Shown here: positions 1 through 22,500 of the stretch, one piece after another
Layout: each line of letters opens with the position of its first letter
How positions within the stretch are numbered: position 1 is the stretch's first letter
From: Zhongshania sp.
Lineage (GTDB): Bacteria; Pseudomonadota; Gammaproteobacteria; Pseudomonadales; Spongiibacteraceae
DNA: 35,498 bases
Direction of reading: 5' to 3'
Assembly (NCBI RefSeq): GCF_029212375.1
Contig: NZ_JARGNU010000025.1
Location: 1 to 35,498 of the forward strand
The notes under the pieces: model-generated
What the model was told of the DNA's origin: nothing
Databases searched by the model: none
The model's input: only the letters and a program-made list of their open reading frames with translations
Position numbers and translations under genes: made by a program

Positions 1-55
1 CAACAGGTGATCACGTTGCGTCGCAGGCGGTGATCAGGTTGGGTCGGAATACGCA
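1..55 (+). mobile_element. Probable terminus of an IS21-family insertion sequence
   Basis: Two direct 18-bp repeats, at 6-23 and 29-46, match at 16 of 18 positions; each contains TGATCA followed by GTT and GTCG. The block ends in GGAATACGCA. Multiple ~20-bp terminal repeats built on TGATCAC and a TG...CA outer end are typical of IS21-family elements, as I recall them. If so, the transposase genes (istA/istB) lie to the left of the window and the element ends near base 55. No transposase gene is visible here, so the family assignment rests on the repeat pattern alone. Confidence 0.5.
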
Positions 56-865
56 GTATGTCGTACTCCGCAGATTACGTTATTAGATCACCCTCAGATC
101 AGTGTCAAAAACTATGGTCTTCCGGCTCAAATCTACGAAGGTTTTGATCGCTTATTAAAGCATTCAGCAGCTACTTACGAATCTCTAGCCGTCAATGAGG
201 ATATCAATATCAAACTGCTGGAGTTGGCAAGGAATCAGCTTGATATAGCTCGTCTGAATGTCGCTGATGCCGCTGGGCTTGTCGTAGCGACAAATATAGA
301 ACACGCCCACAAACTGGCGGCGTTGCTGCAGCAGATGGGAGAAAATGCGCTAGTTGTCTCAACCCATCGACCTGACGCGGGAGCAGCGATTGATCAATTC
401 CGTATTGAATCGAGTAAGTGGATTGTCGCTGTCGGGATGATCTCTGAAGGCACTGACATCCCCAGGTTGGCCGTATGCTGTTATCTAAGTCGGATACGTA
501 CCGAAATGTCCTTCAGGCAGGTGCTGGGAAGGGTGTTGCGACGAAGGGGGCGTGACGATGATCAGGCATGGATGTTTATGATTGCAGAGCCTGAACTGAT
601 AGCCTGTGCTGAGCGCCTGATGGAAGATCTTCCTGAGCATCTAGCTTACGGCAACCATCTTCAATTTGTCCCTCTGGAGGATAGAGAAGCTGGATCCTGT
701 AGTGCTAATGGCGCACAGGATTATCAACTCAATATAACTGAAGATGCTATTGCTTATGCAGACGGAAATAGCCAAAAAAATGTGGGAGGAAGCCAAGCAG
801 CCGGATTCATGGGTCAGCTGATACTGTCTGGTAGTTTCAGGGAAAGGCTATTGAATTTTTTCTGA
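56..865 (+). pseudogene. 5'-truncated SF2 (DEAD/DEAH-type) helicase, C-terminal RecA-like domain
   Basis: The frame is open from an in-frame stop at 8-10 to the TGA at 863-865. Homologous-looking protein starts only after the IS-like end, so the N-terminal ATPase lobe (Walker A and DEAH motifs) is missing. The remaining lobe shows the C-terminal helicase hallmarks: motif V (GMISEGTDIPRL, bases about 434-469) and the motif VI arginine finger region (QVLGRVLRR, about 518-544). A TTG at 224 could serve as a start, but the same frame reads protein-like sequence upstream of it, so the gene is better called a fragment. It converges on the recombinase operon with 36 bp between them and was probably island cargo. 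It is unlikely to work as a helicase alone. Confidence 0.72.
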
Positions 866-901
866 TTTTAGGTGGGTATGCGTAATTCCAGTATCGTGTT
901 T

Positions 902-1324
902 TCAATAGGGGATGTCGGTGCTATCCGAGGTAACCACAATGTTCGTTACCTCTCCGAATTTTGGAACGTCACCGCCGAGGCGACGAATTGTCTTGGCCAT
1001 CTCGGCATTGAGGTAGAGTAGCGACATATAGCGGCTACGTGCAATATCGAGATCACGCTTGAGTTGTTCGATTTCAGCTTTCTGTTTGGGGTTGGTTGGG
1101 TTGCGTTTTCGAGCCTTCGTGCGTGGCAGGATCTCTGCAGCGTCAATCTCAGCAATCAATGTTTCAAAGCCTGGGCGGTTGCGGATTGATCCCCTCTTGC
1201 GGCCCGCCTCTAAAGCAACTGAGTCTTTGTTGATTAAGCTACCTTTGGCGATGTTGACTGGATTATTTTGTTTCAGCCTATTCAGAGCGGCAAAATATTC
1301 TTTGACGGTGTTGCTAACCTTCAT
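902..1324 (-). CDS. Small basic coiled-coil protein of the recombinase operon (TnpC/GmtX-like position)
   Basis: 140 aa; last gene of the recombinase operon, starting 5 nt after the stop of the 707-aa recombinase, with an AGGAG Shine-Dalgarno (inside the upstream stop region) about 8 nt before ATG. Residues 30-60 are basic and look like a small DNA-binding unit (SVALEAGRKRGSIRNRP). Residues about 80-115 are predicted heptad-like helix (KAEIEQLKRDLDIARSRY), so a coiled coil is plausible. No catalytic motif is visible. Tn554 encodes a 125-aa TnpC after two recombinases, and gamma-mobile-trio islands carry a small third protein, GmtX; the same position suggests an accessory, target-binding or directionality role. 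That role is inference; sequence kinship to TnpC or GmtX was not tested. Confidence 0.75.
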   Translation of the reverse strand: MKVSNTVKEYFAALNRLKQNNPVNIAKGSLINKDSVALEAGRKRGSIRNRPGFETLIAEIDAAEILPRTKARKRNPTNPKQKAEIEQLKRDLDIARSRYMSLLYLNAEMAKTIRRLGGDVPKFGEVTNIVVTSDSTDIPY

Positions 1325-1329
1325 GAATT

Positions 1330-3453
1330 TTACTCCTGAGGCTCCAGATACATTTTTGTAATATGGTCGATTTCTGACGCAATAAGTTTAAAAGGGCGAC
1401 TGGTGGGCGAAAACTCAGCCTGATCAAATCGCAGGCTATCGAGATAGATCTCCAGTTTGTCTTCTGAAAGTATTGCGTCTGGGCAGTTTCTGGTGCAGGG
1501 CAACACAATATCAACACCAAAGTGAGGGCAGTCACCTTTGCGTGTACACCCGCCAACCGGGGTATCTATATAGGCTAAACGGCCCTGCTTGAGAGCCTTT
1601 TCGACGGAAACGCGACTCTCGTATATGTTTGGTAGGTTGCCCTTGTCCTTTGCACGTTGAATCTCACTACCGACAGGACCCTTAAGCCTAGTCTCAGACT
1701 TAATCACTTGATCATAAAAGCGTACACTCGTATTAAATCTAACTGACTCGCGGAAGGAGGTTAAAACACTTCCATGGTCAATTGGTTTACCATTTTTATC
1801 GATCAGGAAGTTCTGGGCATAGGTTGAGTTTTCTCCGTATAGGGCTGTCATGACGGCAGAGAGATGTTTGTATTGAGTTTTCAGTGTAGGCAGTGACACC
1901 ATCCCTGATCGGCTCGCGTAGACAGCCACAGTACGCCTAAATTGGTGGGATGAAAGGGGCCAATATTTCCCCTTTGCGAAATCTGGGTTTTCGTCCCAAT
2001 TCCGAAAGGCATCGAATATAGTAAGCTCATCTAAGTCACTCTGCTCAATCACGAGTCTGAGAGATTCGGAGTTATTACGGGCGTGTGGTGTGCCAAAAAG
2101 GGCGGTGTAAGTTGGTTGGGCATAGTGCTTACCAGGGTTAGTGCAGTTAGCGTCAGGGCTGAGCCACAATGGCATATTTCTCGGTATTTCTTCGTCTACA
2201 GGGTGGTGTCGATACCAGTTTAGTCGAGCGAGTTGTTGCGCGATGCGTACCGCATACACGCCTTCTTCTGAAGTTGCCCAGACTAGAGGCTTACTATAAT
2301 TCCCCTGTGATGAAAATTTAGAAAGGTGGGATATCAAAACTGGAACATCCCCAAAACCTTTTGCGGCTTGGTGAATCACTGGTTCATAAGGCATTACCTT
2401 GACTTCGGAGGCTCGCATGCCAGTAAAAGCGTGAATTAATAATACGCATAGTGACTGGAGATGTCCGATATGACTATTAAGTTCAGATAGACTGTTTCCT
2501 AGTCCGGCGTCTGTCCAATACTCACTTAGATCATAGCTATTCACTGTTTCTGATAGAGATTTATATTTTCCTGCTAAATCAATCCAAGTGGGGAAATCTC
2601 GAGTTGGATAAAGCCTTTTAACACGAGAAAGGTTGTTTTTGTAACCGCTGGAATATAGACCATTTTTGAAACAAGGTACGGATAGACTTGGATCAGCATA
2701 AGTATCTCTAATAAAACATTCTATACGTGGAAGATACGGCTCTATTCGTCTTAATTTTTCGAGTGATCCTTCAATCAATTTCGCATATAGGCGCGTTGGA
2801 ATCAGTGGGGTTTGTTGGGATTTGGAATCTGCCTCTATCTGCTTTCTTTGCGTAAGTGCAAGAATATTTTGCATTTCGGTTTCTGGGATAATCAGGGGGG
2901 CGCGCACCTCAATTGTTTCGATACCGCTCCAAAAGGCTGCATCCTTTAACAGCCCTTGGAGGGGAAGTGTTGCTGCAAATCCCGGGCTAGCATTCGCGAT
3001 TGAGTTTCGAAGCGCGACTTGAAATTGTGAAGATGTGTGAGCTTCGGTCAAGGTGATGCCTAAGTTATAGGCTATTTTAGCTAGCGATCTTAATGTCGGC
3101 ATAAGGCTGTTTAGGTAGCTGGTTCCGCGTGAGCGGCCTGCATTACACGTGGTTTCAAACCCGCTCAACCAGTGAAGTAGCTTTATCTCATCGGTTATTG
3201 TACGCGCTAAACTGTCCATAGCCCCGCGAGTTTTAAAGTCCCACCAGCTATCAAAAACAAATCTACTTCCGGCACCGTAGAGACGACAGTCCCACGTGTC
3301 GTGCATAAACTGGCTTAACACCGTACCGTCTACGTTGCGTGAAATAATATACCCAGGGCTAATGCCTTCTTGAGTGACTCCTTCCAACTGTTCAGGGGCC
3401 TGATGTGGTTTGGGGTTTGCCCAATTTATCTCAAACGACATGTTATGATTCAC
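1330..3453 (-). CDS. Large tyrosine recombinase/integrase (third in operon)
   Basis: 707 aa. The catalytic set of tyrosine recombinases can be traced: box I Arg347 in FTGMRASEV, box II His503 and Arg506 in SSHQFRRTVA, His530 in YKHLS and the nucleophile Tyr539 in TALYGENS. A long N-terminal region of about 330 residues precedes it. A cysteine cluster near residues 638-665 (GGCTRKGDC, PCTRNC) follows and may bind zinc. The GTG start overlaps the end of the preceding gene by 11 nt; an ATG four codons later (3441) falls just after the upstream stop and is an alternative. Its size and domain order exceed those of ordinary phage integrases and resemble the large partner recombinases of Tn554-like elements. 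Likely role: DNA cleavage and strand exchange in a multi-recombinase complex. Confidence 0.82.
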   Translation of the reverse strand: MNHNMSFEINWANPKPHQAPEQLEGVTQEGISPGYIISRNVDGTVLSQFMHDTWDCRLYGAGSRFVFDSWWDFKTRGAMDSLARTITDEIKLLHWLSGFETTCNAGRSRGTSYLNSLMPTLRSLAKIAYNLGITLTEAHTSSQFQVALRNSIANASPGFAATLPLQGLLKDAAFWSGIETIEVRAPLIIPETEMQNILALTQRKQIEADSKSQQTPLIPTRLYAKLIEGSLEKLRRIEPYLPRIECFIRDTYADPSLSVPCFKNGLYSSGYKNNLSRVKRLYPTRDFPTWIDLAGKYKSLSETVNSYDLSEYWTDAGLGNSLSELNSHIGHLQSLCVLLIHAFTGMRASEVKVMPYEPVIHQAAKGFGDVPVLISHLSKFSSQGNYSKPLVWATSEEGVYAVRIAQQLARLNWYRHHPVDEEIPRNMPLWLSPDANCTNPGKHYAQPTYTALFGTPHARNNSESLRLVIEQSDLDELTIFDAFRNWDENPDFAKGKYWPLSSHQFRRTVAVYASRSGMVSLPTLKTQYKHLSAVMTALYGENSTYAQNFLIDKNGKPIDHGSVLTSFRESVRFNTSVRFYDQVIKSETRLKGPVGSEIQRAKDKGNLPNIYESRVSVEKALKQGRLAYIDTPVGGCTRKGDCPHFGVDIVLPCTRNCPDAILSEDKLEIYLDSLRFDQAEFSPTSRPFKLIASEIDHITKMYLEPQE

Positions 3454-5437
3454 TCATTTCGATAATCCCGTTTATCTTTGCATTCCAGTATTGGTCTCTT
3501 TCACCGCGCATAAAGCGTTTTTGGGCCGCTAATAGTATCGCTGCATAACGATCATTTTCTAGTGGGAGTGCTTCAATAATTTGCTCTATTCTATTTAAGT
3601 AAGGCGCGTATTTTTTGTAGTGTTGGTCAATATTCGTGGACACAACACAACTTTGAACTTTGATCCATTGCTTGATAGTCAAAAGTCGTAGGAAGTCTTC
3701 CTCGTCAGCATGGAGTCCGAAGTGAACACAAAAGAAACACGTGATCGGCGCACTGCAGCGTGGTTCGAAATCGAGTTCGCTGAACCCTTCGATCAAGCGT
3801 GGGCCATCCTCCTCGTTGACATCGCAATGGCCCGTATTCATAGAGTCACCGTGTTCTATAATACGTAAGGGCGTAACTCCGCTGAAGCGCAGCGCCGCCG
3901 CAGCTCCTTGTGCGACAAAATATTTGCTCATCACTTCTGCCGCCTCAATACGGTTTTTAAAAGCATAATGCCGTTCAATCGTCCCCACTGTGGCTGATTG
4001 AAGTGCAGCGACGAGAGATATATTTCCACCGGATCCATCTACAAGATTCACAGTCTTATGTTTTCTTGCTGGGCGGGTTGCCAGAGATGGCGCGCCTATC
4101 GGCCAATAACTAACTTCCCTCATAGAGGTGTCACCCAACAGTGTGTAGGACGTGTCGGACTTCCGGCGTCCGATTGTAAACAAGCCCTTTTGAGGAGGGT
4201 TTTCAATCAGGAGGGACATCGTTGAGCGTAATTTTAAGTACTGCTTCCAAGTTGTTTTGGAAAATCTTAGATCAATGTACTGGTTTTGGGTCTCGTGGTC
4301 TGCCCGACTCTTAATAGTCCTTATTCCTGCGAGGCCTGCTGTTTTATCTAGACGAGCTTCACTAAAGTTTATAGAGGCGAGTTCGGCTGCGCCATTGCCT
4401 GCCTCGGCCAAAAGTAAATAACCGAAATGTCGTACCGCATTATTTGCTAATATCCTGAGTGAAGAGGTCCCGATACGCTTGTTGTTTAGCTTTGCGCTTT
4501 TAAAAGTACGAGCTGTACTATTAGAAAGAGGTTCTAAGTCGAGTTCAGTTAGAAGGGTGTTGAACTCATCGGGAGTGCCGTCAAATAAACCGTCCCGTCG
4601 ATAAAAATGAGGCATCCAATCTGCCTTTTCATTCTTGCTATATTTTCTCCATCCCCTGTGGTTATTTACATTTTTGTTATAGAAAATCAGGTCCTCAAAT
4701 CCTAAGTCGGCAAATTCAACTATCACAGGAGGTGGCGCGTTTTTTATTACGGCCTCACTAAAAGCATAAAAAAGGCGTGAATGCAGTTCGTAGGCGAGCG
4801 CATGCTCATTAGCTGTGGTGATCGGAGCCGGAAGTTCATTTTCCCGAAGTTTCCTTTGAGCGATGAGAATTGCCCACGACTGAACTACCTTTATATCGCG
4901 GTGGCATGCAATGCATGCAATATAGGCCATTGCTCTCTGCCTTCCTTGGGCCGTTTTATTGCCAATACTTTTTAGTTCTTCGTTTGTATTCGGGAGTCTT
5001 ATTTGGTGGCGGAGTGCGTTTGTAAAGTCACGGTAAATCATTCTTGCCCCCTCTACCGTGTTCAACTCGCTTGAACGTTCTCTTGCGTCAACCCAATCAA
5101 AGGCGGTTTCTATATCTACAAATGGTGGTGTCCCTGGTTTACCTATGAGGTAATCCTTTGCAATTGCTTTGATTAGTATCGAACGACTCTCACACAAGCT
5201 TAGTAGATTAACCTTCGCAAGCTCAGTAGTTGAGGTTACATTTGGGTTAAGGCGGCGACGGTCTAAGTAGCAAGGGCGATATATACGTATGTAGCGGGTG
5301 TGACTACCGTTTCTTGAGTTGGCTGATCCTGTGTCTATCAGGGTGTTTTCGGCGGTGAATTCTGGTGCTTCATCAAAATTATCAATGTTGAACGTATTTA
5401 GTTTTGGTAAAGCATAGGCTGCGTAATCAGAATTCAT
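3443..5437 (-). CDS. Large tyrosine-recombinase-like protein with degenerate active site (second in operon)
   Basis: 664 aa. Its start overlaps the stop of the 492-aa recombinase in an ATGA, indicating translational coupling. The C-terminal half has the end of a tyrosine recombinase domain: LQSATVGTIERHYAF carries a candidate nucleophile Tyr491. The box I segment (LLAEAGNGAAELASI, ~342-356) has no Arg at the expected place, and box II reads RPARKHK (455-461) rather than HxLR. It may be a structural or targeting subunit, or have a shifted active site. A Cys-rich stretch (CSAPITCFFCVHF, ~550) could be a zinc site. In Tn554, TnpB occupies this place and size class. Membership of a recombinase family is fairly clear; activity is uncertain. 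Confidence 0.75.
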   Translation of the reverse strand: MNSDYAAYALPKLNTFNIDNFDEAPEFTAENTLIDTGSANSRNGSHTRYIRIYRPCYLDRRRLNPNVTSTTELAKVNLLSLCESRSILIKAIAKDYLIGKPGTPPFVDIETAFDWVDARERSSELNTVEGARMIYRDFTNALRHQIRLPNTNEELKSIGNKTAQGRQRAMAYIACIACHRDIKVVQSWAILIAQRKLRENELPAPITTANEHALAYELHSRLFYAFSEAVIKNAPPPVIVEFADLGFEDLIFYNKNVNNHRGWRKYSKNEKADWMPHFYRRDGLFDGTPDEFNTLLTELDLEPLSNSTARTFKSAKLNNKRIGTSSLRILANNAVRHFGYLLLAEAGNGAAELASINFSEARLDKTAGLAGIRTIKSRADHETQNQYIDLRFSKTTWKQYLKLRSTMSLLIENPPQKGLFTIGRRKSDTSYTLLGDTSMREVSYWPIGAPSLATRPARKHKTVNLVDGSGGNISLVAALQSATVGTIERHYAFKNRIEAAEVMSKYFVAQGAAAALRFSGVTPLRIIEHGDSMNTGHCDVNEEDGPRLIEGFSELDFEPRCSAPITCFFCVHFGLHADEEDFLRLLTIKQWIKVQSCVVSTNIDQHYKKYAPYLNRIEQIIEALPLENDRYAAILLAAQKRFMRGERDQYWNAKINGIIEMSES

Positions 5438-6912
5438 GACTGAAGCCGCGGGAAGGTACGATTGATTCTTTCATGGTGAAAGGCTATTGCTGCTTTGGCA
5501 GCTGCGTTGCTTTTATCGAAGTCTAAGTAGCCCTGGGTTGTATCAAAATTTGAGTGCCCCATGCGTGCTTTGAGTTCCGCACGTACATCTTTGATCCCTA
5601 GTGCATCAGCATCCCTGATAAAGTTCATACCAAACGTTGCGCGTAAGTCGTGGAACCTGAATAAAATAAAGTCAGGATGAATAACTTGAATGTCCCGTAC
5701 GAGTCTTATGATGTAGTTCCGTACGGCATTCCCCTTTTGAATGGGGAATGAAACGCGATCTTTAGCTGAAATTCGTTGGCTAAACATGCCTCTCTGGCGG
5801 TCAGATATTTCAGAGGTGCTGGTGTAGTACGGAGATCCATTCGAGGTGAGAAAAACATAGTTTTCATTACTTTCCCTGTAGAAGCTAAGTGCTCGCCGCT
5901 CTAGATGTTCTTCAGATTCGATGTAGTCGCGCAACATGCGGACCAGTGCTACAGGGAAGTGTATTCGATATCTCTTTTGGTTTTTGCTATCGACTCCTGT
6001 ACCTTTGCCCACCAGAAGCAACACCTCACCTTCAGCAGATGTATTGCTGTGAAGGTAGTAGATATCCTTGACTCGGATAGTGCACACGGTTTGGATTCGT
6101 GCCCCTGTAAACAGGGCGACGAGGCACATCAGTATGAAGGCTTGATTACCACTCTGTTTAAGCTGATTAAGGATTAGTGTTTGCTCTTCTTCTGTGAGTG
6201 GCCTGAGGCGGCCTCCATCTTTGATTTCGCCGATATGACTGCGTTTAGGTACCCTGAATGTAAAATTGGTAATCTCTATTGTTTTTATACACTGAATCCC
6301 TGCGGAGTTGATTACTGGTATGCCTGCTAAAGTAGAGTTGTATGGCTCGTTTTCGAGAGTAGACTTTAGGATCAAATTCCAAGCGAGCAAGCCTTTATAA
6401 AAATTGACGACTGCTTGCATTCGGGCTTTTGCTACTCCTAAGGAAATGGGTTGGTTAGTTTGACGCAGTAATCGCTTTAAGTAGCGATAGTAAGTCCATG
6501 TGACGCGACTTTCTTCCAATTCGGGGAAGTGAATTTCGTGAATGGCCTTACCCTCAGATTGCAGGTGTTCAATCCAGCGTAGGTACATCATGAGATGTTT
6601 TGCAATTGATTTGACTGTCTCCACGCTTGGAGGCTCAAGCTTGGCCATTTCAGTAAACTTATTCATGAGATATAAATTGCCTAGGTCCCAAGGCGTTCCA
6701 TTCCCTTTGATTATGATAGGAAATTTTCTAATGACTCCATCTTCTATTGGAGATAGCTGAATAGATAGGTCTGTATACTTAAATGGAGAGAATCGGGCGG
6801 CAGTTTGGTCGAAATTAGTTTCTAGGGTGACGTGGGATGGGGTAAAGACATCTATGAAGGAAAGATGTGCATTTGAATTTAAGGCCTCCTTCGATCGCTT
6901 GTCTGGACGCAA
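5434..6912 (-). CDS. Site-specific tyrosine recombinase (integrase), first gene of the operon
   Basis: 492 aa. All catalytic residues are in order: Arg272 (FTGARIQTV), Lys303 (VGKGTG), His421 and Arg424 (FHDLRATFG), His453 (RMGHSNFDTTQ) and Tyr462 (GYLDF). Residues about 85-190 form a probable SAM-like core-binding domain. The start is TTG at 6912: a near-perfect AGGAGGT lies 8 nt upstream and no ATG is better placed. It heads the operon that runs to 902 and reads inward from the island end, 45 bp from the disrupted srkA reading frame. It corresponds in place to TnpA of Tn554 or GmtY of gamma-mobile-trio islands; the names are not assigned because no alignment was run. Confidence 0.9.
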   Translation of the reverse strand: MRPDKRSKEALNSNAHLSFIDVFTPSHVTLETNFDQTAARFSPFKYTDLSIQLSPIEDGVIRKFPIIIKGNGTPWDLGNLYLMNKFTEMAKLEPPSVETVKSIAKHLMMYLRWIEHLQSEGKAIHEIHFPELEESRVTWTYYRYLKRLLRQTNQPISLGVAKARMQAVVNFYKGLLAWNLILKSTLENEPYNSTLAGIPVINSAGIQCIKTIEITNFTFRVPKRSHIGEIKDGGRLRPLTEEEQTLILNQLKQSGNQAFILMCLVALFTGARIQTVCTIRVKDIYYLHSNTSAEGEVLLLVGKGTGVDSKNQKRYRIHFPVALVRMLRDYIESEEHLERRALSFYRESNENYVFLTSNGSPYYTSTSEISDRQRGMFSQRISAKDRVSFPIQKGNAVRNYIIRLVRDIQVIHPDFILFRFHDLRATFGMNFIRDADALGIKDVRAELKARMGHSNFDTTQGYLDFDKSNAAAKAAIAFHHERINRTFPRLQS

Positions 6913-6929
6913 TGCCGTGACCTCCTGCG

Positions 6930-6956
6930 CGTGATATAAACATAGAGTATATCACG
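6930..6956. promoter_or_regulatory. 9-bp perfect inverted repeat in front of the recombinase operon
   Basis: CGTGATATA at 6930-6938 and its exact complement TATATCACG at 6948-6956 are separated by 9 bp. The repeat covers the predicted -10 of the recombinase promoter and lies just upstream of the Shine-Dalgarno of the first recombinase. It could be a repressor operator, or an arm-type binding site for the recombinases or the small accessory protein, allowing autoregulation. Function is inferred from position. Confidence 0.6.
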
Positions 6957-6974
6957 TTAGGGGTGCTGTGTCGG
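6946..6974 (-). promoter_or_regulatory. Putative sigma70 promoter of the recombinase operon
   Basis: On the minus strand, CCGACA (6969-6974) and TATACT (6946-6951) are separated by exactly 17 bp, matching the TTGACA/TATAAT consensus at 4 and 5 of 6 positions. Transcription would start near 6938 and give a short leader before the TTG start at 6912. The -35 lies in the last codons of the srkA-derived frame and the -10 lies beyond its stop codon, all on the island side of the junction. Confidence 0.5.
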
Positions 6975-7109
6975 TATGTGCGCGTTAAGGGTGTCATAGC
7001 TGTTTAGGGCAAATACCCGCATATCACTAATAAAGCCAAGGCTTTCAACAGCGTCGATGACTCTGTCTGGATTGAGTTCAGCAAAATCTTTTTGTTCAGT
7101 CTCGCTCAT
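6957..7109 (-). pseudogene. srkA: srkA (yihE/rdoA) N-terminal fragment, truncated by island insertion
   Basis: 50 codons starting at ATG 7109-7107, overlapping the modC stop in an ATGA. Residues 8-38 (including FAELNPDRVIDAVESLGF and FALNSY) match the start of the stress-response kinase A family, where LNSYENRVYQ is strongly conserved (E. coli SrkA: TPLNSYENRVYQF, from memory). After Tyr38 the frame continues for 12 unrelated codons to a TAA at 6957-6959, so the kinase body of about 280 residues is absent. SrkA is a Ser/Thr kinase of the APH fold linked to envelope and oxidative stress survival. The break marks the island attachment site at roughly 6990-7000. The remainder of srkA should lie at the other island end unless it was lost. 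Confidence 0.82.
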
Positions 7110-8224
7110 GAGGCGACTCCATATTCATTTACGAGGGCGACAGTTTTGATTTGTGCAAACACTTGCTGGCCAGCGTGTAGGTTTAAGCGGTCGTAGGATT
7201 TGCGGGTGATGCGGGCCAGTAAGTATTGCTCGCCAAGGGCCAAGCGCACAGTGACTTGCGAGCGGTTAACAGGGTTGTCGGTCTCAGCGTTGCTGTCGGT
7301 GTTTGTATCGCTGCTATTAATAGTGCAGTTCAATATATTTAAAATGCTGCTTTGCGTTGGGGCGTCAAGGCTAATACTAATGTCTCTGGCGGCTACAAAT
7401 AGCCGGACGGATTGGCCTGGGCGCGCCGAAATTTGTTTAACACTGAGCTGGTGGCCTGACGCCAACTGCAAGGTGCTCAGCTGGTAGTCTGCTTCATGTT
7501 CAACGAGGGTGGCATTGAGCACCGCGCCGGCATCCTGCTGGCGGCTAAGGGGCAAGTCTAAGCGGGTACTTAATTCCACTAGGTCGCCCTCGGCAATTAA
7601 CTGTCCGTTTTCGAGTAGTAGCACATGGTCTGCGAGGCGGCTGATTTCGTGAAAGCTGTGGCTAACATAAATGATAGGCAGGCTGAGATGCTGGGGCAGA
7701 ATTTGCAGCACATCCATCATCTCGTCTCTGGCCGTGTCGTGCAGTCCAGATAAGGGCTCGTCCATTAATAATAACTGGGGGTGACGCAGCAGAGCGCGGG
7801 CGATGGCGACTCGTTTGCGCTCGCCACCGGAGAGTTTGTTTACGTCGCGGTCTAGCAAGGCGGTAATTTGCAGCCATTCGCAAACCTCGTCGAAGCTGGG
7901 TCCTGTTGCGCGAAACTGGCGGTTTTGGGCGTAGCGTAAATTACCGGCCACGTTCAGGTGAGGAAAAAGCTGGGCGTCTTGAAATACCACACCGACGCCA
8001 CGTTGCTCGCAGGCCAGAAATTGGCGCTGGGTTTGCCAGTCGTCGCCGCAAAACTGCACCATGCCCTGGGGTGCGCGCTCAAGTCCGGCGATGCAGCGCA
8101 GCAAACTGGTTTTACCGCTGCCGCTGGGGCCACAGATGGCGGTGATGCCGATGCTCGGTAAAGCTGTGTCGACGTTAAGCTCAAAATCGCCGCGCCGCAT
8201 ATGCAGAGATAATAATAAACTCAT
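7106..8224 (-). CDS. modC: Molybdate ABC transporter ATP-binding protein ModC
   Basis: 372 aa, the usual ModC length. Walker A GPSGSGKT (residues 32-39), Q-loop VVFQDAQLFPHL (~79-90), ABC signature LSGGERKRVAIARALL (131-146) and Walker B LLLMDEP (151-157) are all present. A C-terminal MOP/TOBE-type domain (~290-372) is where ModC binds molybdate or receives regulation. It energises molybdate import through ModB at the inner membrane. Its ATG lies inside the end of modB (4-nt overlap), and its own stop overlaps the ATG of the srkA fragment, so modB-modC-srkA formed one translationally coupled unit before the island inserted. Confidence 0.95.
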   Translation of the reverse strand: MSLLLSLHMRRGDFELNVDTALPSIGITAICGPSGSGKTSLLRCIAGLERAPQGMVQFCGDDWQTQRQFLACEQRGVGVVFQDAQLFPHLNVAGNLRYAQNRQFRATGPSFDEVCEWLQITALLDRDVNKLSGGERKRVAIARALLRHPQLLLMDEPLSGLHDTARDEMMDVLQILPQHLSLPIIYVSHSFHEISRLADHVLLLENGQLIAEGDLVELSTRLDLPLSRQQDAGAVLNATLVEHEADYQLSTLQLASGHQLSVKQISARPGQSVRLFVAARDISISLDAPTQSSILNILNCTINSSDTNTDSNAETDNPVNRSQVTVRLALGEQYLLARITRKSYDRLNLHAGQQVFAQIKTVALVNEYGVAS

Positions 8225-8925
8225 GTCTGCGCCTTTGATGTATAACTGCTGCCAAGCTCAAGGCCGCGGGCGCGATTAAAGCGGTAAACGCCGCAGAGTA
8301 CAATAAAGGAAAAGCCGATAAGTCCGCCGGCCAACCAATGGGCGGCGCTGTATTGCAAAGATTCAACCCGATCATAAAGGGCGATGGACAGCACTTGGGT
8401 GCGGCCTGGAATATTGCCGCCAATCATTAATACCACGCCAAACTCACCCACAGTGTGGGCGAAGCCTAAGGTGGTGGCGACCAAAAAATTGCTGCGACAC
8501 AGGGGCAGCACAACGCTGGCAAAGCGGTCGAGGCGAGATGCGCCCAAGCTTGCCGCCGTTTCGAGCAGCGCTTTGGGTACTTGCTGAAAGCCGCTTTGCA
8601 GGGGCTGCACAACAAAGGGCAGCGAATACAATACCGAGGCAATGACTAGCGCACTAAAACTAAAAGCAAGAGTGCTGCCGGTTAAGGTGAACCAGAATTG
8701 CGCTATTGGCGAATTCGGCGCAAAGGCGATGAGCAAATAAAAGCCTAAAACCGTTGGCGGTAATACCAGCGGCAGAGCAACAAGGGCTTCAATTAAGGGT
8801 TTGCTACGCCACTGGGTATTGGCCAGCCACCATGCGAGTGGCGTTGCTATTAATAGCAGAATTAGCGTGGTCAGCCCTGCTAGCTTCAGAGTTAATAATA
8901 TCGCCAGCCAGTCTTGGTGACTCAT
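8221..8925 (-). CDS. modB: Molybdate ABC transporter permease ModB
   Basis: 234 aa with about five hydrophobic membrane segments and the BPD_transp_1 EAA loop around ETAASLGASRLDRFASVVLP, where the ATPase docks. The GEFGVVLMIGGNIPGRTQ segment is characteristic of ModB/CysT-type permeases. It overlaps modC by 4 nt. The expected periplasmic binding protein gene modA is not upstream: the next gene that way is comF. Only a 23-codon reading frame ends at the modB start, so ModA must be encoded elsewhere. Confidence 0.93.
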   Translation of the reverse strand: MSHQDWLAILLTLKLAGLTTLILLLIATPLAWWLANTQWRSKPLIEALVALPLVLPPTVLGFYLLIAFAPNSPIAQFWFTLTGSTLAFSFSALVIASVLYSLPFVVQPLQSGFQQVPKALLETAASLGASRLDRFASVVLPLCRSNFLVATTLGFAHTVGEFGVVLMIGGNIPGRTQVLSIALYDRVESLQYSAAHWLAGGLIGFSFIVLCGVYRFNRARGLELGSSYTSKAQT

Positions 8926-8993
8926 ATTAGGTGGCCCGTAAATTGAGCGTGGGCATTGCGTGGGCGTTGGCGGCGGTGTTTGGGATTGTGCAT
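8922..8993 (-). CDS. Possible 23-aa leader peptide upstream of modB
   Basis: The frame begins with ATG preceded by GGAGG at 5-nt spacing, a stronger ribosome-binding site than that of modB itself, and its TGA overlaps the modB ATG (ATGA). The peptide is rich in His, Arg and Pro (HRRQRPRNAH). It could couple translation to modB or be the residue of a lost upstream gene. There is no homology evidence, and the opposite strand is also open here, so coding is uncertain. Confidence 0.35.
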   Translation of the reverse strand: MHNPKHRRQRPRNAHAQFTGHLI

Positions 8994-9053
8994 GTCGCCT
9001 CCAAGTATGATGTTGATTTAGGCCTCTGAATGGCTATGGCTCTGCGTGTTGGC

Positions 9054-9767
9054 TTACGGTGTTCGCGCCAGACACCAGATATCAATTTGCCTAGCGCCAT
9101 TGCGCGCCAGTATAGCGGCCACAGTATTGGCTGTCGCGGTCGTTGTTACTACATCGTCGACTATGGCAATGTGCTTGCCGCGGATTGGACTATTTGCGTT
9201 CAATGCAAACGCTTTGCGGAGATTGCTGCTGCGTTGCGCGGCGCTGAGGCCTTGCTGGGTAAGGGTTGCGCGGGGGTGGGTGAGCGCATGGCAGACGGGG
9301 ATGTTCAGCGCGCGGCCCCAGTCGTCGGCGAGCAGAGCGGCTTGGTTGAAACCGCGCTGCCAGCGTCGTCGCCAGTGCATGGGTATCGGCACCAGAAGCT
9401 CGGGGCAGGGCGCGAGGTCGCCACCAAGGTTTGCCAGCCAGAGCTGTGCTAGCACCGAGCCATACTGCAGCTGTCCGTGATATTTAAAACCGGCGATGAG
9501 GCGGTCTACTGGAAAATCGTAGCGCAGGGGTGTTAGGCAGTGACTGAAGACTGGGGGCTTGCTAAGACAGCGGCCGCAATGGCTGTGAGCGTCTTTGGGC
9601 GACAGCGGCAGGGCGCAGCGTGCGCACTGCGGTCCCAGCCATGGCAAATCGGCTTCGCAGGCGTGGCAGAGGTCGATTTGGCGACGGCTGGGTGTTTGGC
9701 ATAAAATACAGAGGCCTTTAAATGCCTTGTAAATCAGTTTGTTATAAAATCTGTTAACCATAAGCAT
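9054..9767 (-). CDS. comF: ComF family protein (phosphoribosyltransferase-like)
   Basis: 237 aa. The N-terminal part has CxxC zinc-ribbon pairs (CILC, CHAC, CARC, CGRC; ~21-80), and the C-terminal part has a type I phosphoribosyltransferase fold with the PRPP-binding loop [14 protein letters not shown] (~200-213). ComF proteins support DNA uptake in competent bacteria and are widespread in non-competent ones; the biochemical role is unsettled. It is divergent from bioB, with the BirA site over its first codons. An internal ATG (9761) two codons later is an alternative start. Adjacency of comF and bioB is common in pseudomonads. Confidence 0.88.
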
Positions 9768-9783
9768 CCTTGCAGGTTGACAG
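9751..9783. promoter_or_regulatory. Predicted BirA operator of the biotin operon
   Basis: CTGTTAACC (9751-9759) and GGTTGACAG (9775-9783) are near-perfect inverted half-sites (8 of 9 complementary) separated by 15 bp. This matches the BirA box format in gammaproteobacteria (TTGTAAACC, 15-16 bp, GGTTTACAA). The right arm contains the -35 hexamer of the bioB promoter, so BirA bound with biotinyl-5'-AMP should block RNA polymerase. It also covers the comF start codons. Confidence 0.82.
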
Positions 9784-9804
9784 CTTGCGCCAAGCCTTTA
9801 TCAT
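9777..9804 (+). promoter_or_regulatory. bioB promoter (sigma70)
   Basis: A perfect TTGACA -35 (9777-9782), a 16-bp spacer and TATCAT (9799-9804, 5 of 6) form a strong promoter. The predicted start near 9811 lies upstream of the ATG at 9842 but downstream of an in-frame ATG at 9770, which excludes that earlier start for BioB. The -35 sits inside the BirA half-site. Confidence 0.75.
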
Positions 9805-9841
9805 ACTAAGCTTTACGACTTCGCCCAAATCGGATTTTATC

Positions 9842-10900
9842 ATGACTGCACACACGCCAACGACAATTCGTACTGACTGGACCAGCCAAGAGGTTCAAGC
9901 ATTATTTGCTCTGCCATTTAATGATTTGTTGTTTCAGGCGCAAACCGTGCACCGCGCTAATTTTGATCCCAATGCGGTCCAAGTCAGCACTCTGTTGTCG
10001 ATTAAAACTGGCGCCTGTCCAGAAGATTGCAAATACTGCCCCCAGAGCAATCGCTACGACACCGGTCTTGAGAAAGAAAAGTTGATGGAGGTCGAAAAAG
10101 TCCTCGCCGAAGCGCGTGCGGCCAAGGCCTCTGGTACAACCCGCTTTTGTATGGGGGCGGCGTGGCGCTCGCCCAAGAAAAAAGATATGCCCTATGTGAC
10201 CGCGATGGTGAAGGGCGTGAAGGAAATGGGTCTCGAAACCTGTATGACCTTGGGTATGCTCACCGGCGAGCAAGCAGCTGAATTGGCCGACGCGGGCTTG
10301 GATTACTACAATCACAATCTCGACACTTCACCTGAGTTCTACGGTGAAATCATCACCACTCGCACCTATCAGGATCGCTTGGGCACCTTGTCTAATGTGC
10401 GCGATGCCGGTATTAAAGTGTGTAGCGGTGGCATTGTTGGTATGGGCGAGTCCATCAAAGACCGTGCGGGTTTGTTACTGCAATTAGCTAATTTGCCGGT
10501 GCAGCCAGAGAGCGTGCCGATCAATATGTTGGTGAAGGTTGAGGGTACGCCGATGGCTGATGTGGCCGACCTCGACCCCTTCGATTTTATTCGCACCATC
10601 GCTGTGGCGCGGATTATTATGCCAAAATCCCATGTGCGCCTGTCTGCTGGCCGTGAATCTATGAATGAAGAAATGCACGCTCTGGCGTATTTTGCCGGTG
10701 CTAACTCCATTTTCTACGGCGAAAAACTGCTTACTACCGCCAACCCTAGCGCGAATAAAGACCTTGAGCTGTTTGGCCGCCTTGGTATTAAGCCTGAAGA
10801 GCGTCACGTTGAGCATGACGACGAAGCTCAAAGCGAGGCCTTGCTTGGCGCCGTGCAGCAAGTGCAGAACGATCGCTTTTTTTACGACGCCACCGCTTAA
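9842..10900 (+). CDS. bioB: Biotin synthase BioB
   Basis: 352 aa from ATG 9842; the frame is open earlier, but the promoter and operator lie there. It is a radical SAM enzyme that inserts sulfur into dethiobiotin, the last step of biotin synthesis. The 4Fe-4S cluster motif is Cys59, Cys63 and Cys66 in [13 protein letters not shown]. Other conserved blocks are [23 protein letters not shown] and SAGRESM, the last carrying the Arg ligand of the 2Fe-2S cluster. Length and order agree with E. coli BioB (346 aa). It is the first gene of the bioB-bioF-bioHC run under predicted BirA control. Confidence 0.97.
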
Positions 10901-10924
10901 TCGGCAGCGCTGTAATTCATTGTG

Positions 10925-12106
10925 ATGAATGAGGTTTTGCAGCGCCGCCTAACAGCGCGGCGGGAGCAGTCCCGTTACCGAAGCCGCCGTGTGCTTGAGT
11001 CTGCTCAGGGCGCGCGACTGCGCGTTGATGGTCGCGAGATGCTGCAATTCTGCAGCAACGATTACCTCGGCTTAGCTAACCACCCTAAGCTTGTTGCTGC
11101 AATGCAGGGCGCCGTCGCAGAGATGGGCGTGGGCGGCGGTGCTTCGCATTTGGTCTGTGGTCATTCGGCGCTGCATCACCAGCTTGAAGAGCGCTTGGCC
11201 AAAATCACCGGCCGCGAGCGCGCTTTATTATTCTCAACCGGTTATATGGCCAATCTCGGCACGGTAACCGCCTTGCTGGGCAAGGGCGATCATATTCTTG
11301 AAGATCGCCTCAACCACGCTTCTTTGCTCGATGCGGGCTTACTGAGTGGCGCGCGCTTTCAACGCTTTCAGCACAATGACATGGCCGATCTTGAGCGCCG
11401 TTTGCAAAAATTACCCGTCGAGGGCAATCGTCTTATTGTGGTTGATGCGGTCTTTAGTATGGACGGCGATATGGCGCCCTTGGCTGAACTGGCTGCGCTG
11501 GCTCAGAAATATGACGCATGGCTAATGGCCGATGACGCTCACGGCTTTGGGGTGTTGGGCGAAAGCGGGGCCGGCAGCGCAGAGTTTTTTGGCCTAGATC
11601 AGCAGCAATTGCCGGTGCTAATGGGCACTTTGGGCAAAGGCCTTGGCAGCTTTGGTGCGTTTGTGGCGGGCAGTGACGAGCTCATAGAAACCTTAATTCA
11701 GTTTGCGCGCCCCTATATTTATACCACTGCCATGCCACCGGCCGTAGCGGCGGCAACCATTGCTGGTTGCGATCTATTGGCTGATGAGTCGTGGCGGCGC
11801 CGTCATTTACAAGATTTGATAGCGTATTTCCGCCAGCGGGCAGAAAGTCTAAATTTACCCCTCATGCCGTCGCCAACGGCTATTCAGCCTTTGCTCATTG
11901 GTGACGAACAAACAGCAATGGCAATTAGCGCTCAACTTGAAGCGCGAGGTATTTTGGTATCGGCAATTCGCCCACCCACAGTACCGGTGGGGAGTTCGCG
12001 GCTGCGAATTACCTTGTCAGCGTCGCACAGCCAAGCCGATGTAGACGAGCTGTTAACCGTCTTAAGCGACGTGCTCGCCGAGGTTCTTGGGGCTGTTGAC
12101 TGCTAA
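10925..12106 (+). CDS. bioF: 8-amino-7-oxononanoate synthase BioF
   Basis: 393 aa from ATG 10925; a GTG one codon earlier (10922) is an alternative. This PLP enzyme condenses pimeloyl-ACP with L-alanine to KAPA, releasing CO2. The PLP-binding lysine is Lys238 in [22 protein letters not shown] (42-50), the HASLLDAG block (131-138) and [11 protein letters not shown] (202-212) are typical of the alpha-oxoamine synthase family. It begins 24 nt after bioB, and its TAA stop overlaps the next ATG by one base. Confidence 0.96.
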
Positions 12107-13686
12107 TGTTTATTTATCGCGAGCATTTGGCGGCTTACCGCAAAGACGCCGCCGAGTTGGTGCTGTTGCACGGCTGGGCCAGTGACTCCTCGGTTTGGCG
12201 GCCACTGCTGAGTGGCTTGCGTCGCAATTTTAATATCACCTTGATTGACCTCCCGGGCTTCGGCCGAAGTGATGGCTTGGAAGCTGGCGCAGATCCCGAT
12301 CAAGTCATTGACAGCATTTTGCCATTTTTGCCTGCCACCGCGCTTTACTGCGGTTGGTCTTTGGGTGGCATGTTGGCAACGCGATTGGCGGCGCGTTTGC
12401 CAGCGCGGGTGCAAGCTTTGATCTGCGTTGCCAGCAATGCGGTGTTTGTCGCCGACGCCGATTGGCCAGCGGCGATGCCGCCTGCTGATTTTGAGCAATT
12501 CGCCGCTTTAATAGCAACTAAGCCCAGTGCAGGTTTGCGCCGTTTCGAATTATTGCAATTACATGGCGATAAGCATGCTCGCCAATTGCGAGTTGAGCTG
12601 GCGGGTTTGAGCGCGGCACCAAAACCAGTCTATCTATCTAGTAGCTTGGCATGTTTGCGGACTATCGATAATCGCCAAGCGCTTGCCGAGCTGACGTGCC
12701 CCTGTCTCTATCTGTTTGGCGACGAGGATGCGCTGGTGCCGAGTTCGGCAGCAGCAGTCTTCGCTGAACGTTTTCCGCAGCACCGTGTTCAGTTAATGGC
12801 GGGGCGCGGGCATTTATTGTTTTTGGCTGAAGGCGATGTGTTTATCGCGTTGTTGGCTGAGTTTTGTCAGGCGCAGGGGCTATTATTGAGCGGCGCAGCG
12901 AGCCAAATGAACAAGCAGGATATTGGCCGCTCATTTAGCCGCGCGGCACCAAGCTACGACGGCGCGGCGCTGTTGCAGCGCAGGGTAGCCGATGGCTTGA
13001 TGGCCTATCTTCCCCAAGCGCTTGTTGGTCCGGTTATTGACTTAGGTTGTGGCACTGGCTACAGCTTGCCTGCCTTGCGCGCGCGGACAGGGACGGAGGC
13101 GCTACTTGCTGTTGATCTCGCGCCGGGTATGCTGCGTTACGCAGCAGATCAGTATAAGGGTGTTGCCGAGAACTTTGTGTGTGGTGACGCCGAAGATCTA
13201 CCTCTGGCAGACGGCAGCATAGGCACAATTTTTTCCAGTCTCGCCCTGCAGTGGTGTGAGAACTTGACAGCGCTGCTATCTGAAATCGAGCGGGTGTTGG
13301 CGCCAGGTGGTGATGCTTATATAGCAACCTTAGGTCCAGATACTCTGCATGAGCTACGCAGTGCGTGGTCGCAGGTAGACGGCTACGTACACGTAAATCA
13401 GTTTGCCGAGCGTTCAGCGTTGGCGGGTGCGATTGCCGATTCAGGATTAAGGCTCAAAGCTTGGGATGAGTCGACGGAAGTGATGCACTACCAGAAGTTG
13501 TCGGAGCTGACTCGTGAGCTGAAAAATATTGGCGCTCACAATGTAAATGGTGGTCGGCCTAGTGGCTTAACTGGCCGGCAGCGTCTTAAATCCCTGACCC
13601 ATCATTACGAGCGTTATCGGGATGAGAATAGTAACTTACCTGCGAGCTACCAACTTTGGTATATACATCTCCATAAGGCAGAATAA
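12106..13686 (+). CDS. BioH-BioC fusion: pimeloyl-ACP methyl ester esterase / malonyl-ACP O-methyltransferase
   Basis: 526 aa with two enzymes in one chain. Residues 1-~262 are a BioH-type alpha/beta hydrolase: nucleophile Ser85 in GWSLGG, Asp208 (in GDEDALVP) and His236 (GRGHLLFL) form the triad. Residues 268-526 begin with a methionine (MNKQDIGRSFSRAAPSYD), typical of BioC, and hold the SAM-binding motif VIDLGCGTGY (310-319). BioC methylates malonyl-ACP to disguise it for fatty acid elongation; BioH removes the methyl from pimeloyl-ACP methyl ester. The chain therefore pairs the opening and closing steps of pimelate synthesis. No stop or frameshift separates the halves. TAATG overlaps bioF. 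Confidence 0.93.
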   Translation: MFIYREHLAAYRKDAAELVLLHGWASDSSVWRPLLSGLRRNFNITLIDLPGFGRSDGLEAGADPDQVIDSILPFLPATALYCGWSLGGMLATRLAARLPARVQALICVASNAVFVADADWPAAMPPADFEQFAALIATKPSAGLRRFELLQLHGDKHARQLRVELAGLSAAPKPVYLSSSLACLRTIDNRQALAELTCPCLYLFGDEDALVPSSAAAVFAERFPQHRVQLMAGRGHLLFLAEGDVFIALLAEFCQAQGLLLSGAASQMNKQDIGRSFSRAAPSYDGAALLQRRVADGLMAYLPQALVGPVIDLGCGTGYSLPALRARTGTEALLAVDLAPGMLRYAADQYKGVAENFVCGDAEDLPLADGSIGTIFSSLALQWCENLTALLSEIERVLAPGGDAYIATLGPDTLHELRSAWSQVDGYVHVNQFAERSALAGAIADSGLRLKAWDESTEVMHYQKLSELTRELKNIGAHNVNGGRPSGLTGRQRLKSLTHHYERYRDENSNLPASYQLWYIHLHKAE

Positions 13687-14276
13687 TTGTGCGCCACAAT
13701 GGCAATAGTGCTGAATATTATGGGGCATAAGCCTTTATTTGGTGCAATAATTTTGATGTTGCGCTATGTTATGCGGGATAAAAAATGGCATCCTACCGCC
13801 CATCGTAGTGAAAATTTTCACGAAAATGTCATTTAACATGCATTAATTGAGCGAGCCGGATAATTGCTCAATATTATGTTAGATGATTCATCGTGTTTGT
13901 ATGGGATTGCGATTTGCGCGTGGCGTAGAGATTGCATGGAAATAATGAGTCGGTTTGCTGTCTGGCTTTGCGGTAAATAGTAATTCTTTAACAAAAATGC
14001 ATTTAAATTTTTGGGATTTAATTGCTAGGATAAGCATGTATTGCTATAAGTACCTACAGCTCGTGCAGTTAGCGTAATACTTTGTAGTGCTAGTTAGTTA
14101 CATGGCCTTCTTAGTTTTATATGCAAAAGACGCTGGAAGTGGGTGCTTTAGTCAATCATAATGCGGTAAAAAAAGTGTATAACACCAGTTGGCTGGTCGT
14201 TATTTGGGTGGGGGTCTGGCGCGCTTTGCGTCGATGCTGGCAAATTTAGTTCAAAATGAAAAACCGGAGTTTTACC
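13687..14276. other. 590-bp AT-rich intergenic region with palindromes
   Basis: No supported reading frame. Two structured sites stand out: a perfect 14-bp palindrome GTGAAAATTTTCAC (13808-13821) and an inverted repeat ATTGAGC/GCTCAAT (13846-13852, 13866-13872; 13-nt loop). No U-tract follows either, so they look like regulator sites rather than terminators. A TATAAC -10-like box occurs around 14177. The promoter of the following lipoprotein gene must be here. An unannotated small RNA cannot be excluded. Confidence 0.5.
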
Positions 14277-15173
14277 ATGATTAAATCGAAGAAAATGCGG
14301 CTTACTATGTTCGCTGCCAGCATTGTTGCAGCTGGAGTGCTCACGGGATGCTTTGATGATGAAAGCGCAGATCCAGTTAGCTCTGCATCGCCAACTGAGT
14401 TCTCTGCAACTGCTGCATATGGTGCATTAGTTGGTGCTACTTGTGTTGTAAACGGCACAGTTACTGCTGCTCTCGATTCTTACACTACTGATGCCGATGG
14501 TGTTGGTGCAATTAGTGCGACTATTGGCGCTGCTGAATACCCGCTTATCATTAGCTGTACTGGCGGTAATTTCTATAACGAAGCAACCGAAGCAACTGAA
14601 GCTAACGACGAAACCCTGAAGTCGATAGTACCTACTGCTGGTGCACTTACCGACGCTGGCGGCAATATTGCTGTTACCACGCTGACTAGCATGGCTGCGG
14701 CACTTTATGAGTCTCTTCCTGCTGCGCAGCGTAATTCGTCTACTGCTAACCAGGCTTTAACTAATGTTATTAAGGCTTTGGCTCCTGGCTTGGGTAATGG
14801 CGATGGCTTAGATTTGCTGCGCGCGCCAACCGTTGTAAAAAGCTCAGCTAGTACTGTTGCAAACAATGATGCCGGTTATTATGCGTCTATCCTAGCTGGT
14901 TTGGCTAAAGCTGGTGCAACATTGACTCCACCACTGTCACCTGCAAAATTGGCTGCTAAGTTAGCGACTGAAGCTGCTGCTGGTACTTTGGATGCGAACG
15001 TAGTGTCTGTGCTTAAAGCTAAAACAGCTGAGTTCGCGAATGACAAAGGTACTGCAGCGCTGAAAACTAAAGTAGAGGCGGCACCTGCGCCTACTACTAC
15101 TGTTACTAAACCTACAACTGGCACTGGTGGCACTGGTGGCACTGGCACTGGTGGTAACGGTAGCACTCTGTAA
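14277..15173 (+). CDS. Alanine/threonine-rich lipoprotein of unknown function
   Basis: 298 aa from ATG 14277, chosen over ATG 14256 because GGAG at 14266-14269 lies 7 nt before it and it gives a clean lipoprotein signal peptide (lipobox LTGC, Cys25). After the signal, residues ~40-90 resemble a carboxypeptidase-regulatory-like beta sandwich (YGALVGATCVVNG, TDADGVG, GGNFYNEATEA). The middle is helical and Ala-rich, and the C-terminus is a low-complexity Gly-Thr tail (GTGGTGGTGTGG). It should be anchored in the outer or inner membrane. A dedicated terminator follows, so it is probably a monocistronic gene between bio genes. I do not recognise a specific family. Confidence 0.8.
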   Translation: MIKSKKMRLTMFAASIVAAGVLTGCFDDESADPVSSASPTEFSATAAYGALVGATCVVNGTVTAALDSYTTDADGVGAISATIGAAEYPLIISCTGGNFYNEATEATEANDETLKSIVPTAGALTDAGGNIAVTTLTSMAAALYESLPAAQRNSSTANQALTNVIKALAPGLGNGDGLDLLRAPTVVKSSASTVANNDAGYYASILAGLAKAGATLTPPLSPAKLAAKLATEAAAGTLDANVVSVLKAKTAEFANDKGTAALKTKVEAAPAPTTTVTKPTTGTGGTGGTGTGGNGSTL

Positions 15174-15190
15174 TACCTAAGCTTAGGTTT

Positions 15191-15222
15191 AAAAAGGGCG
15201 GCTTTCAGCTGCCCTTTTTTTT
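15191..15222 (+). terminator. Rho-independent terminator after the lipoprotein gene
   Basis: Arms AAAAAGGGC-G-GCT (15191-15203) and AGC-T-GCCCTTTTT (15207-15219) pair around a 3-nt loop with one G-U pair and are followed by a T run. It starts 17 nt after the stop codon. A separate 14-bp palindrome, ACCTAAGCTTAGGT, precedes it at 15175-15188. Confidence 0.88.
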
Positions 15223-15268
15223 GCGTTAAAATAACAAGCAATTAAAACTAATGATTGAGAGGTTTCCC

Positions 15269-17389: not shown

Positions 17390-17408
17390 TGGCTTTAGTG
17401 GTTTTAGC

Positions 17409-18107: not shown

Positions 18108-18333
18108 TTTTTGGTCTCCTATGTCGCGCCCATATTTAACTGCTGCAGTTACTTGAGAATCTTTGTTTAGGCGCTTGCGGGGCATAATACCCTTTATCAC
18201 TTTTCTATTGAGTCTAAAAATACAGGTTAGCTTTAATGTGTGATTGTGGTTTAAACCGCAATCGTTTATCGTTACGCCATATTGACTAATTAACATCGTT
18301 ATTAATTAGTAACGAAGCTTGCAGTTAAACTAA
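18108..18333. promoter_or_regulatory. Intergenic region with two inverted repeats
   Basis: No coding frame is supported. The first repeat (18242-18263) is a 22-bp dyad whose arms GATTG and CAATC flank GGTTTAAACC, with a single non-complementary pair. The second pairs ACTAATTAA (18285-18293) exactly with TTAATTAGT (18302-18310) across 8 nt. Both lie 25-90 bp upstream of the -35 of the OmpA-family gene and could be operators; neither has a T-run, so neither is an obvious bioD terminator. Confidence 0.5.
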
Positions 18334-18362
18334 TTGGATTTCTCTAAAACAGATCCTATAAA
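18334..18362 (+). promoter_or_regulatory. Putative promoter of the OmpA/TSP3 pair
   Basis: TTGGAT (18334-18339), 17-bp spacer and TATAAA (18357-18362) match sigma70 hexamers at 4 and 5 of 6. The leader would be about 40 nt and ends in GGGGA (18400-18404), 6 nt before the ATG at 18411. Confidence 0.6.
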
Positions 18363-18410
18363 AATGTAGCTTTGGGGCGTAATTTACGCTCTGTTTAACG
18401 GGGATAACAG

Positions 18411-19466: not shown

Positions 19467-19495
19467 TTATTTAAATGGCTTTAAGGAGTAGGGCA

Positions 19496-22471: not shown

Positions 22472-22500
22472 GTTCTGAGTGTAATGAGTATATGTTGAAT

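Follow-up and report, generated by a model that had tools for sequence, protein, structure and literature searches.

A probable strand-biased circularizing integrative element in srkA of Zhongshania sp. carries a diverged copy of the gene it interrupts

Gene organization of the recombination module

The stretch analysed here, hereafter the window, comprises contig C28 in full, 35,498 nucleotides of a Zhongshania sp. genome (NZ_JARGNU010000025.1, assembly GCF_029212375.1), so that its left edge is the edge of the contig. Near that edge it contains four head-to-tail genes on the minus strand (902-6912), which we designate intA, tfp, intB and srap, at the end of an element inserted in srkA. They encode proteins of 492, 664, 707 and 140 amino acids; intA and tfp overlap by 4 nt, tfp and intB overlap by 11 nt, and a 5-nt gap separates intB from srap. 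This arrangement, with its sizes, overlaps and gap, had been described in an earlier reading of the sequence (the original prediction) and is confirmed by the list of open reading frames (ORFs).

The first gene, intA (5434-6912, TTG start), specifies a tyrosine recombinase with the R-H-R-H-Y pattern (PF00589, E 3.9e-8). The third, intB (1330-3453, GTG start), specifies a large tyrosine recombinase with the same pattern and conserved C-terminal Cys residues; its match to PF00589 reaches E 0.11 only, and a sequence search of the PDB returned no match. Between them lies tfp (3443-5437, ATG start), the product of which is predicted to have a tyrosine-recombinase fold without the catalytic pattern. 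It gave no Pfam or NCBIfam match at E up to 1. A Foldseek search with the predicted structure found nothing at E 0.001 or better; the best E was 6.7e-3, and the matches ranked 1 to 16 were all tyrosine recombinases. K376, R378, R458, Y491 and a C-terminal Cys/His cluster are invariant in 26 aligned homologues. The last gene, srap (902-1324, ATG start), encodes a small auxiliary protein that appears Lys/Arg-rich by eye; a PDB sequence search gave 12 weak rows (best E 0.085), which we take to be chance matches to coiled coils. Just upstream of intA is an inverted repeat, perfect over 9 bp with a 9-bp spacer (6930-6956), a putative operator or recombinase site.

To place these genes, related loci were collected by an IntB alignment scan of an 84,980-species collection, and the best 80 of the 213 loci found were kept. 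Homologues of all four genes occur in the same order within 7.5 kb at 70 of the 80, more than chance assembly would give; at each of the other ten, one or two of the genes have no match. The catalytic residues, sought with a regular expression, were matched in gene 3 at 69 of the 70 complete loci, in gene 1 at 60 and in gene 2 at none. Of the three large tyrosine recombinases that had been proposed, genes 1 and 3 thus stand, and gene 2 retains the predicted fold without the active-site pattern. Five loci are particularly close, with IntB 53-54% identical to that of the window, namely L022, L025, L023 (Cellvibrio), L024 (Thalassobium) and L026 (Oceanobacter mangrovi); L022 and L025 have identical ORFs and an identical left region. 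In these two, at 6380-6560 of the locus, the module lies outside srkA, with motif C (see below) immediately ahead of where a minus-strand ORF starts. A further locus (L014), on an E. coli IncC plasmid (CP042646), has an operon of the type discussed below in which the intB frame is broken at several places.

Element ends and extent of the island

The module lies, as had been proposed, at the end of a mobile element: attL occupies 6980-6999, 68-87 bp upstream of the first gene. It consists of motif C (CACCCTTAACGCGC; 6980-6993, minus strand), an imperfect inverted repeat of the motif C' found at attR on contig C21 of the same genome, and a 6-bp spacer, CTATGA (6994-6999, minus strand), which is host (attB) sequence and supplies the srkA codons for Ser-Tyr-Glu. 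A second C-like repeat (CACCCCTAACG) lies inside attL (6955-6965, minus strand), and by eye also at the attL of the other three srkA elements (Cellvibrio, Thalassobium and Oceanobacter). The 5' fragment of srkA (6994-7109, minus strand; NF008738 match to positions 3-40) spans about 36 codons and reads into the element; its start is overlapped by the stop codon of modC. Contig C21 contains the srkA remainder from residue 37, an adjoining full srkA, and attR.

At the left edge of the window is the 3' part of a cargo helicase gene (56-865, plus strand), convergent with srap and corresponding to residues 193-460 of the 460-amino acid Thalassobium (L024) helicase. The end of C21 encodes residues 2-194 of the same protein. 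Since one helicase gene is split between the two contigs, we infer that C21, the repeat between them and C28 make up a single island (26.3 kb plus 7.0 kb plus the repeat). This repeat (1-55) is insertion sequence (IS)-like; it splits both the helicase gene and the assembly and recurs at the end of contig C5. It contains two 18-bp direct repeats (6-23 and 29-46), and on C5 it ends a phage-type integrase reading frame. The Thalassobium element is complete on one contig and measures 17.5 kb. GC content is 0.44-0.48 over 1-7000 and 0.52-0.57 over 7000-13000; since low values (0.42-0.50) recur over about 13500-22500, the island is not marked by GC alone.

CCyTAA is common to both end motifs in all four srkA insertions. 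In each of these the attL spacer is srkA sequence and the attR spacer is different: with the window first, they read CTATGA, CTATGA, TTACGA and CTACGA at attL against CTACGA, CAGAGC, CCACCT and GTCAGA at attR. The window attR spacer is itself srkA-like, as expected if the donor element sat in another srkA. The 202-223 bp before attR hold 5, 3, 5 and 2 copies of TGTACA in the four elements, against 3 and 1 copies in two 15.9-kb stretches of element interior, and these copies may serve as recombinase arm sites.

The ten cargo proteins of C21 that were scanned comprise BrxA, BrxB, BrxC, PglX, PglZ and BrxL of a BREX system, PDC-M07A/B, and MkoA/MkoB (Mokosh); two further ORFs lie between PglX and PglZ. 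The PDC-M07A/B pair is located within the BREX operon, flanked by BrxC and PglX (3623-5481 of stretch L126 on C21), and MkoA/MkoB is the cargo nearest the carried srkA. Defence cargo has also been described in GInts (PMC10121019).

Similarity to SE-type elements

Strand-biased circularizing integrative elements (SEs) are described as possessing an intA-tfp-intB-srap operon, the spacer at attL coming from attB and that at attR being brought in (PMC10214605). One of them, SE-Pda04Ya311 on plasmid pAQU1, was shown by its authors to be active (PMC10214605). The proteins of the window are 15-24% identical to the pAQU1 SE proteins over all four, and the comparison was therefore made with profiles. 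Against two-row target profiles (the pAQU1 protein and its relative on V. parahaemolyticus pHLA), family profiles headed by the window protein gave hhalign E 4.6e-20 over 548 columns for Tfp (26 rows) and E 1.2e-10 for Srap (25 rows). The gene order, intA-tfp-intB-srap at the motif C end, is that of SEs at the 70 complete loci, and the imperfect inverted repeats C and C' with 6-bp spacers follow the SE rule in the four srkA elements.

The original prediction was right in recognizing a mobile-element recombination module at an island end, with its four genes in conserved order and Tn554-like traits. Its further suggestion of a possibly under-described class is not borne out: the SEs are a named family with just this layout, and their published gene order and att rules agree with those found here (PMC10214605, PMC9345347). 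By the original prediction's own yardstick, a named family that already has the four-gene layout, the module is not new; it is a distant lineage added to the SEs.

The carried srkA copy

Each of the four srkA insertions contains a full-length, diverged srkA, which is located just inside attR in three and directly after srap in Cellvibrio. In the window genome it lies about 200 bp from the srkA remainder and is 54% identical to it. The genomes of L022 and L025, in which the elements are inserted elsewhere, each have one full srkA.

A tree was calculated from 32 sequences over 285 columns (the four carried copies, the four remainders and 24 other srkA genes). In this tree the carried copies cluster together with support of 100; the broken gene of Oceanobacter falls inside the cluster and the other three broken genes fall outside. 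The copies are 71-93% identical among themselves versus 48-61% to the broken genes of the three other hosts. Since all four insertions carry a copy and the copies form one clade, the srkA copy travels with the element. The carried-copy group is under purifying selection: dN/dS is 0.026-0.046 in its three unsaturated comparisons, and in two of these the Oceanobacter remainder is one of the pair.

All that is left of a native-type srkA in Oceanobacter mangrovi is a fragment with a stop codon (L120, C20:423796-423966), near the element-type remainder. This fragment is 58% identical to the Thalassobium host gene and 53% to Oleibacter, against 40-42% to the element copies. These findings are most simply explained by decay of the native gene and its replacement by an element copy, which a second element then hit. 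Of an older nested att site in this genome there was no sign: no second attR was found, nor, downstream of the remainder, a TGTACA-rich end.

Around the att site the carried copy and the broken gene are identical at 19-24 of 33 nt in the four elements. We do not claim that the copy is made self-immune by synonymous changes in the att core, because an element-type srkA was itself hit in Oceanobacter and such changes therefore cannot protect it fully.

Target copies in other elements

Of the 70 four-gene loci, 66 had enough left flank for the gene abutting attL to be compared with the DNA downstream of srap, which amounted to 0.1 to 30 kb. A homologue was present downstream in 16 of the 66, or 13 after discounting L037, L048 and L095 (weak or not abutting). 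For control genes lying 3.0-3.7 kb further left the figure was 2 of 63, both matches extending over 38-39 residues. The 13 loci have as targets hrpB (seven), srkA (two), a glyoxalase (gloA-like) gene (two) and an Acinetobacter ORF (two). The last (154 and 170 amino acids) belongs to no Pfam family, has the look of a metallopeptidase by eye only, and may have a copy of less than full length. With the window and Oceanobacter added, 15 elements carry a target copy, 11 of them beyond srkA; they are not independent, the hrpB copies of L076 and L078 having zero synonymous difference.

The hrpB insertions fall into two kinds. In all seven loci with a carried copy, the match of the host gene simply stops at residue 832-834 of about 855. 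In all ten loci in which no copy was seen (two of them, L060 and L089, followed through to the element's far end, some with less than 10 kb of DNA), the host gene has a new, near-constant tail (such as LFHKLDPWVESLN), which we take to come from the left end of the element. L048 was left out of this contrast, having two tandem hrpB genes and a native tail: both genes lie left of intA (1143-6378 of the locus), the first ends at the usual cut point, and 17.5 kb beyond srap there is a C-terminal hrpB tail. With L048 placed in the no-copy group, Fisher's test on copy versus tail (7/0 vs 0/11) gives p 3e-5, a value that ignores ancestry and is descriptive only.

These counts bear on the question of whether the carried srkA is unrelated to the broken gene, being ordinary cargo or serving as a homology arm. 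GInts and SEs do pick up many genes, and at one gloA-like insertion (L075) no copy occurs within 29.5 kb. We nevertheless consider it unlikely, since srkA is carried in all four srkA insertions, hrpB copies were seen only with host genes that lose their end, and downstream homologues are, in the raw counts, much commoner for the gene that abuts the element than for the control genes.

Several comparable cases are in print. SE-6283 and its relatives in bcp carry bcp, for which compensation has been proposed (PMC9345347, PMC5991714), RME, an island in recA, brings a divergent recA with it, and the same paper cites a thyA-type case (PMC4405046), Tn552-II carries a target-like gene, tgl, with rescue proposed (PMC12486829), and insertion of a genomic island into hrpB has been reported (PMC8373256). 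A general rule of target copying was not found in the literature searched, in the parts of it that yielded the bcp, recA and tgl cases. New here are srkA as a target, with evidence of ancestry and selection, three further target genes, and the contrast between tail and spare in hrpB.

SE-type elements repeatedly carry the gene that they break (srkA, hrpB, the gloA-like gene and the Acinetobacter ORF, with bcp already published and recA for RME). This recurrence gives a simple, testable rule, by which the target of an unknown island can be predicted from the genes that it carries, and a way in which mobile copies come to replace housekeeping genes; "duplicate" housekeeping genes found beside truncated ones in genome annotation may have the same explanation. 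We would put at even chances the wider proposal that SE-type elements replace their targets as a general strategy: an element with its site in a useful gene would provide either a new end for that gene or a whole diverged spare, after which the spare takes over and the native gene decays. If so, recombinase specificity and the spare gene would co-evolve, and replacement of a host gene would become a condition of carrying the defence cargo.

Proposed mechanism and alternatives

In our judgement the four genes very probably form the intA-tfp-intB-srap operon of an integrative element of SE type, at least 33 kb long, with defence cargo and inserted in srkA. By analogy with tested SEs, IntA and IntB would act at the motifs C and C' of the two ends, partnered by Srap and by Tfp, which has the recombinase fold but lacks a full active site. 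A single strand would be exchanged, and a circle containing the 6 bp to the left of the element would be copied out. The circle would then insert into other srkA genes at the same short target sequence, its 6 bp ending up at attR. Insertion cuts srkA after about 36 codons, and the full, diverged srkA just inside attR, if expressed, would most likely rescue the broken gene.

Several points weigh against this interpretation. Narrow profiles built from the window clade alone (four and five rows) match the pAQU1-type profiles weakly (Tfp probability 1.9, E 0.026; Srap probability 40, E 3e-4), so that the strong match depends on the larger family profiles (26 and 25 rows). The elements of the window, Cellvibrio and Oceanobacter, three of the four in srkA, are split over contigs. 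The attR spacers of three of the four are not srkA-like, so that this interpretation does not account for the donor sites of those elements, and the fourth broken gene, that of Oceanobacter, is itself of the element type.

Assignment to GInt (ginABCD; called the Tn6571 family in PMC10121019) instead of SE appears improbable. GInts have an equal number of genes, 6-nt cuts and large cargo, and defence cargo is known in them (PMC5385486, PMC10121019). As described in PMC5385486, though, the protein without the first Arg is the product of the third gene, GinC, whereas here it is gene 2 that lacks the pattern, at all 70 loci, and gene 3 that has it, at 69 of them. More improbable still is a new transposon class apart from SE, Tn554, RIT and GMT; the low identity to the pAQU1 proteins and the weak narrow-profile matches would favour it, but the same four genes in the same order, the full-length match of the Tfp family profile and the same 6-bp spacer rule argue otherwise. 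That the second srkA arose by local duplication of the host gene during insertion can be given almost no weight, since the copy, close as it lies to the remainder, resembles it far less than it does the copies in other hosts and groups with its own host's remainder only in Oceanobacter, whose remainder is element-type.

Other features of the window

To the right of the srkA fragment, a 526-amino acid ORF (12106-13686, plus strand) looks by eye like a BioH-BioC fusion and lies between a bioF-like ORF and a later bioD-like ORF (17319-18107). Inside this biotin gene cluster are a small lipoprotein-like ORF and a 712-amino acid ORF, YjbH-like by eye, the two together occupying 14256-17389 (plus strand). 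A 998-amino acid ORF with a long Asp-rich repeat region (19475-22471, plus strand) adjoins an ORF that is OmpA-like by eye. Two adjacent ORFs at 26755-27614 (minus strand) appear by eye to be one fatty-acid-hydroxylase-type gene split by a frame change.

Comparison with known systems

Kinship with GMT islands and RIT elements, both named in the original prediction, found no support. The GmtY model NF040693 gave no match to the four proteins at E up to 1; its only match in the window genome is on contig C24, at 20.3 bits against a cut-off of 340. No GmtZ or GmtX match appeared in a library scan of the four proteins, the presence of both models in that library being unconfirmed. RIT elements are tabulated as having three recombinases of 315-410 amino acids, all with the catalytic Tyr (PMC10214605, Table 1); the proteins here measure 492, 664 and 707 amino acids, and gene 2 is without the catalytic pattern, yet keeps a conserved Tyr.

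The GInts resemble the window element in their four-gene recombination operon, 6-nt staggered cuts and large cargo (PMC5385486). In that description genes 1 and 2 are catalytic and the third, GinC, is without the first Arg, unlike the order seen here.

The Tn554 family, including Tn552-II, shares with the window element TnpC, the counterpart of Srap, an att sequence brought in at the right end, and a gene resembling the target (PMC12486829). It is described with no Tfp gene and from Gram-positive hosts (PMC12486829); the family is defined by tnpA, tnpB and tnpC only (PMC10214605), and the window has a Tfp gene.

The RME of Vibrio cholerae is an island that breaks recA and has a complete but divergent recA at the end opposite the integrase, as srkA is broken and carried here; in that description it possesses a phage integrase and XerS, with no four-gene operon (PMC4405046).

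The closest parallels are with the SEs. SE-Pda04Ya311 has the same gene order and the Tfp and Srap families (PMC10214605); it differs in its 15-24% protein identity, in being plasmid-borne and in having a bla gene nearby. SE-6283 (Tn6283) of Vibrio alfacsensis, which we liken to the window element by description and not by sequence, has bcp as its target instead of srkA and carries other cargo, but possesses the four-gene operon, follows the 6-bp att rule, and likewise brings with it a diverged homologue of the gene that it breaks (PMC5991714, PMC9345347).

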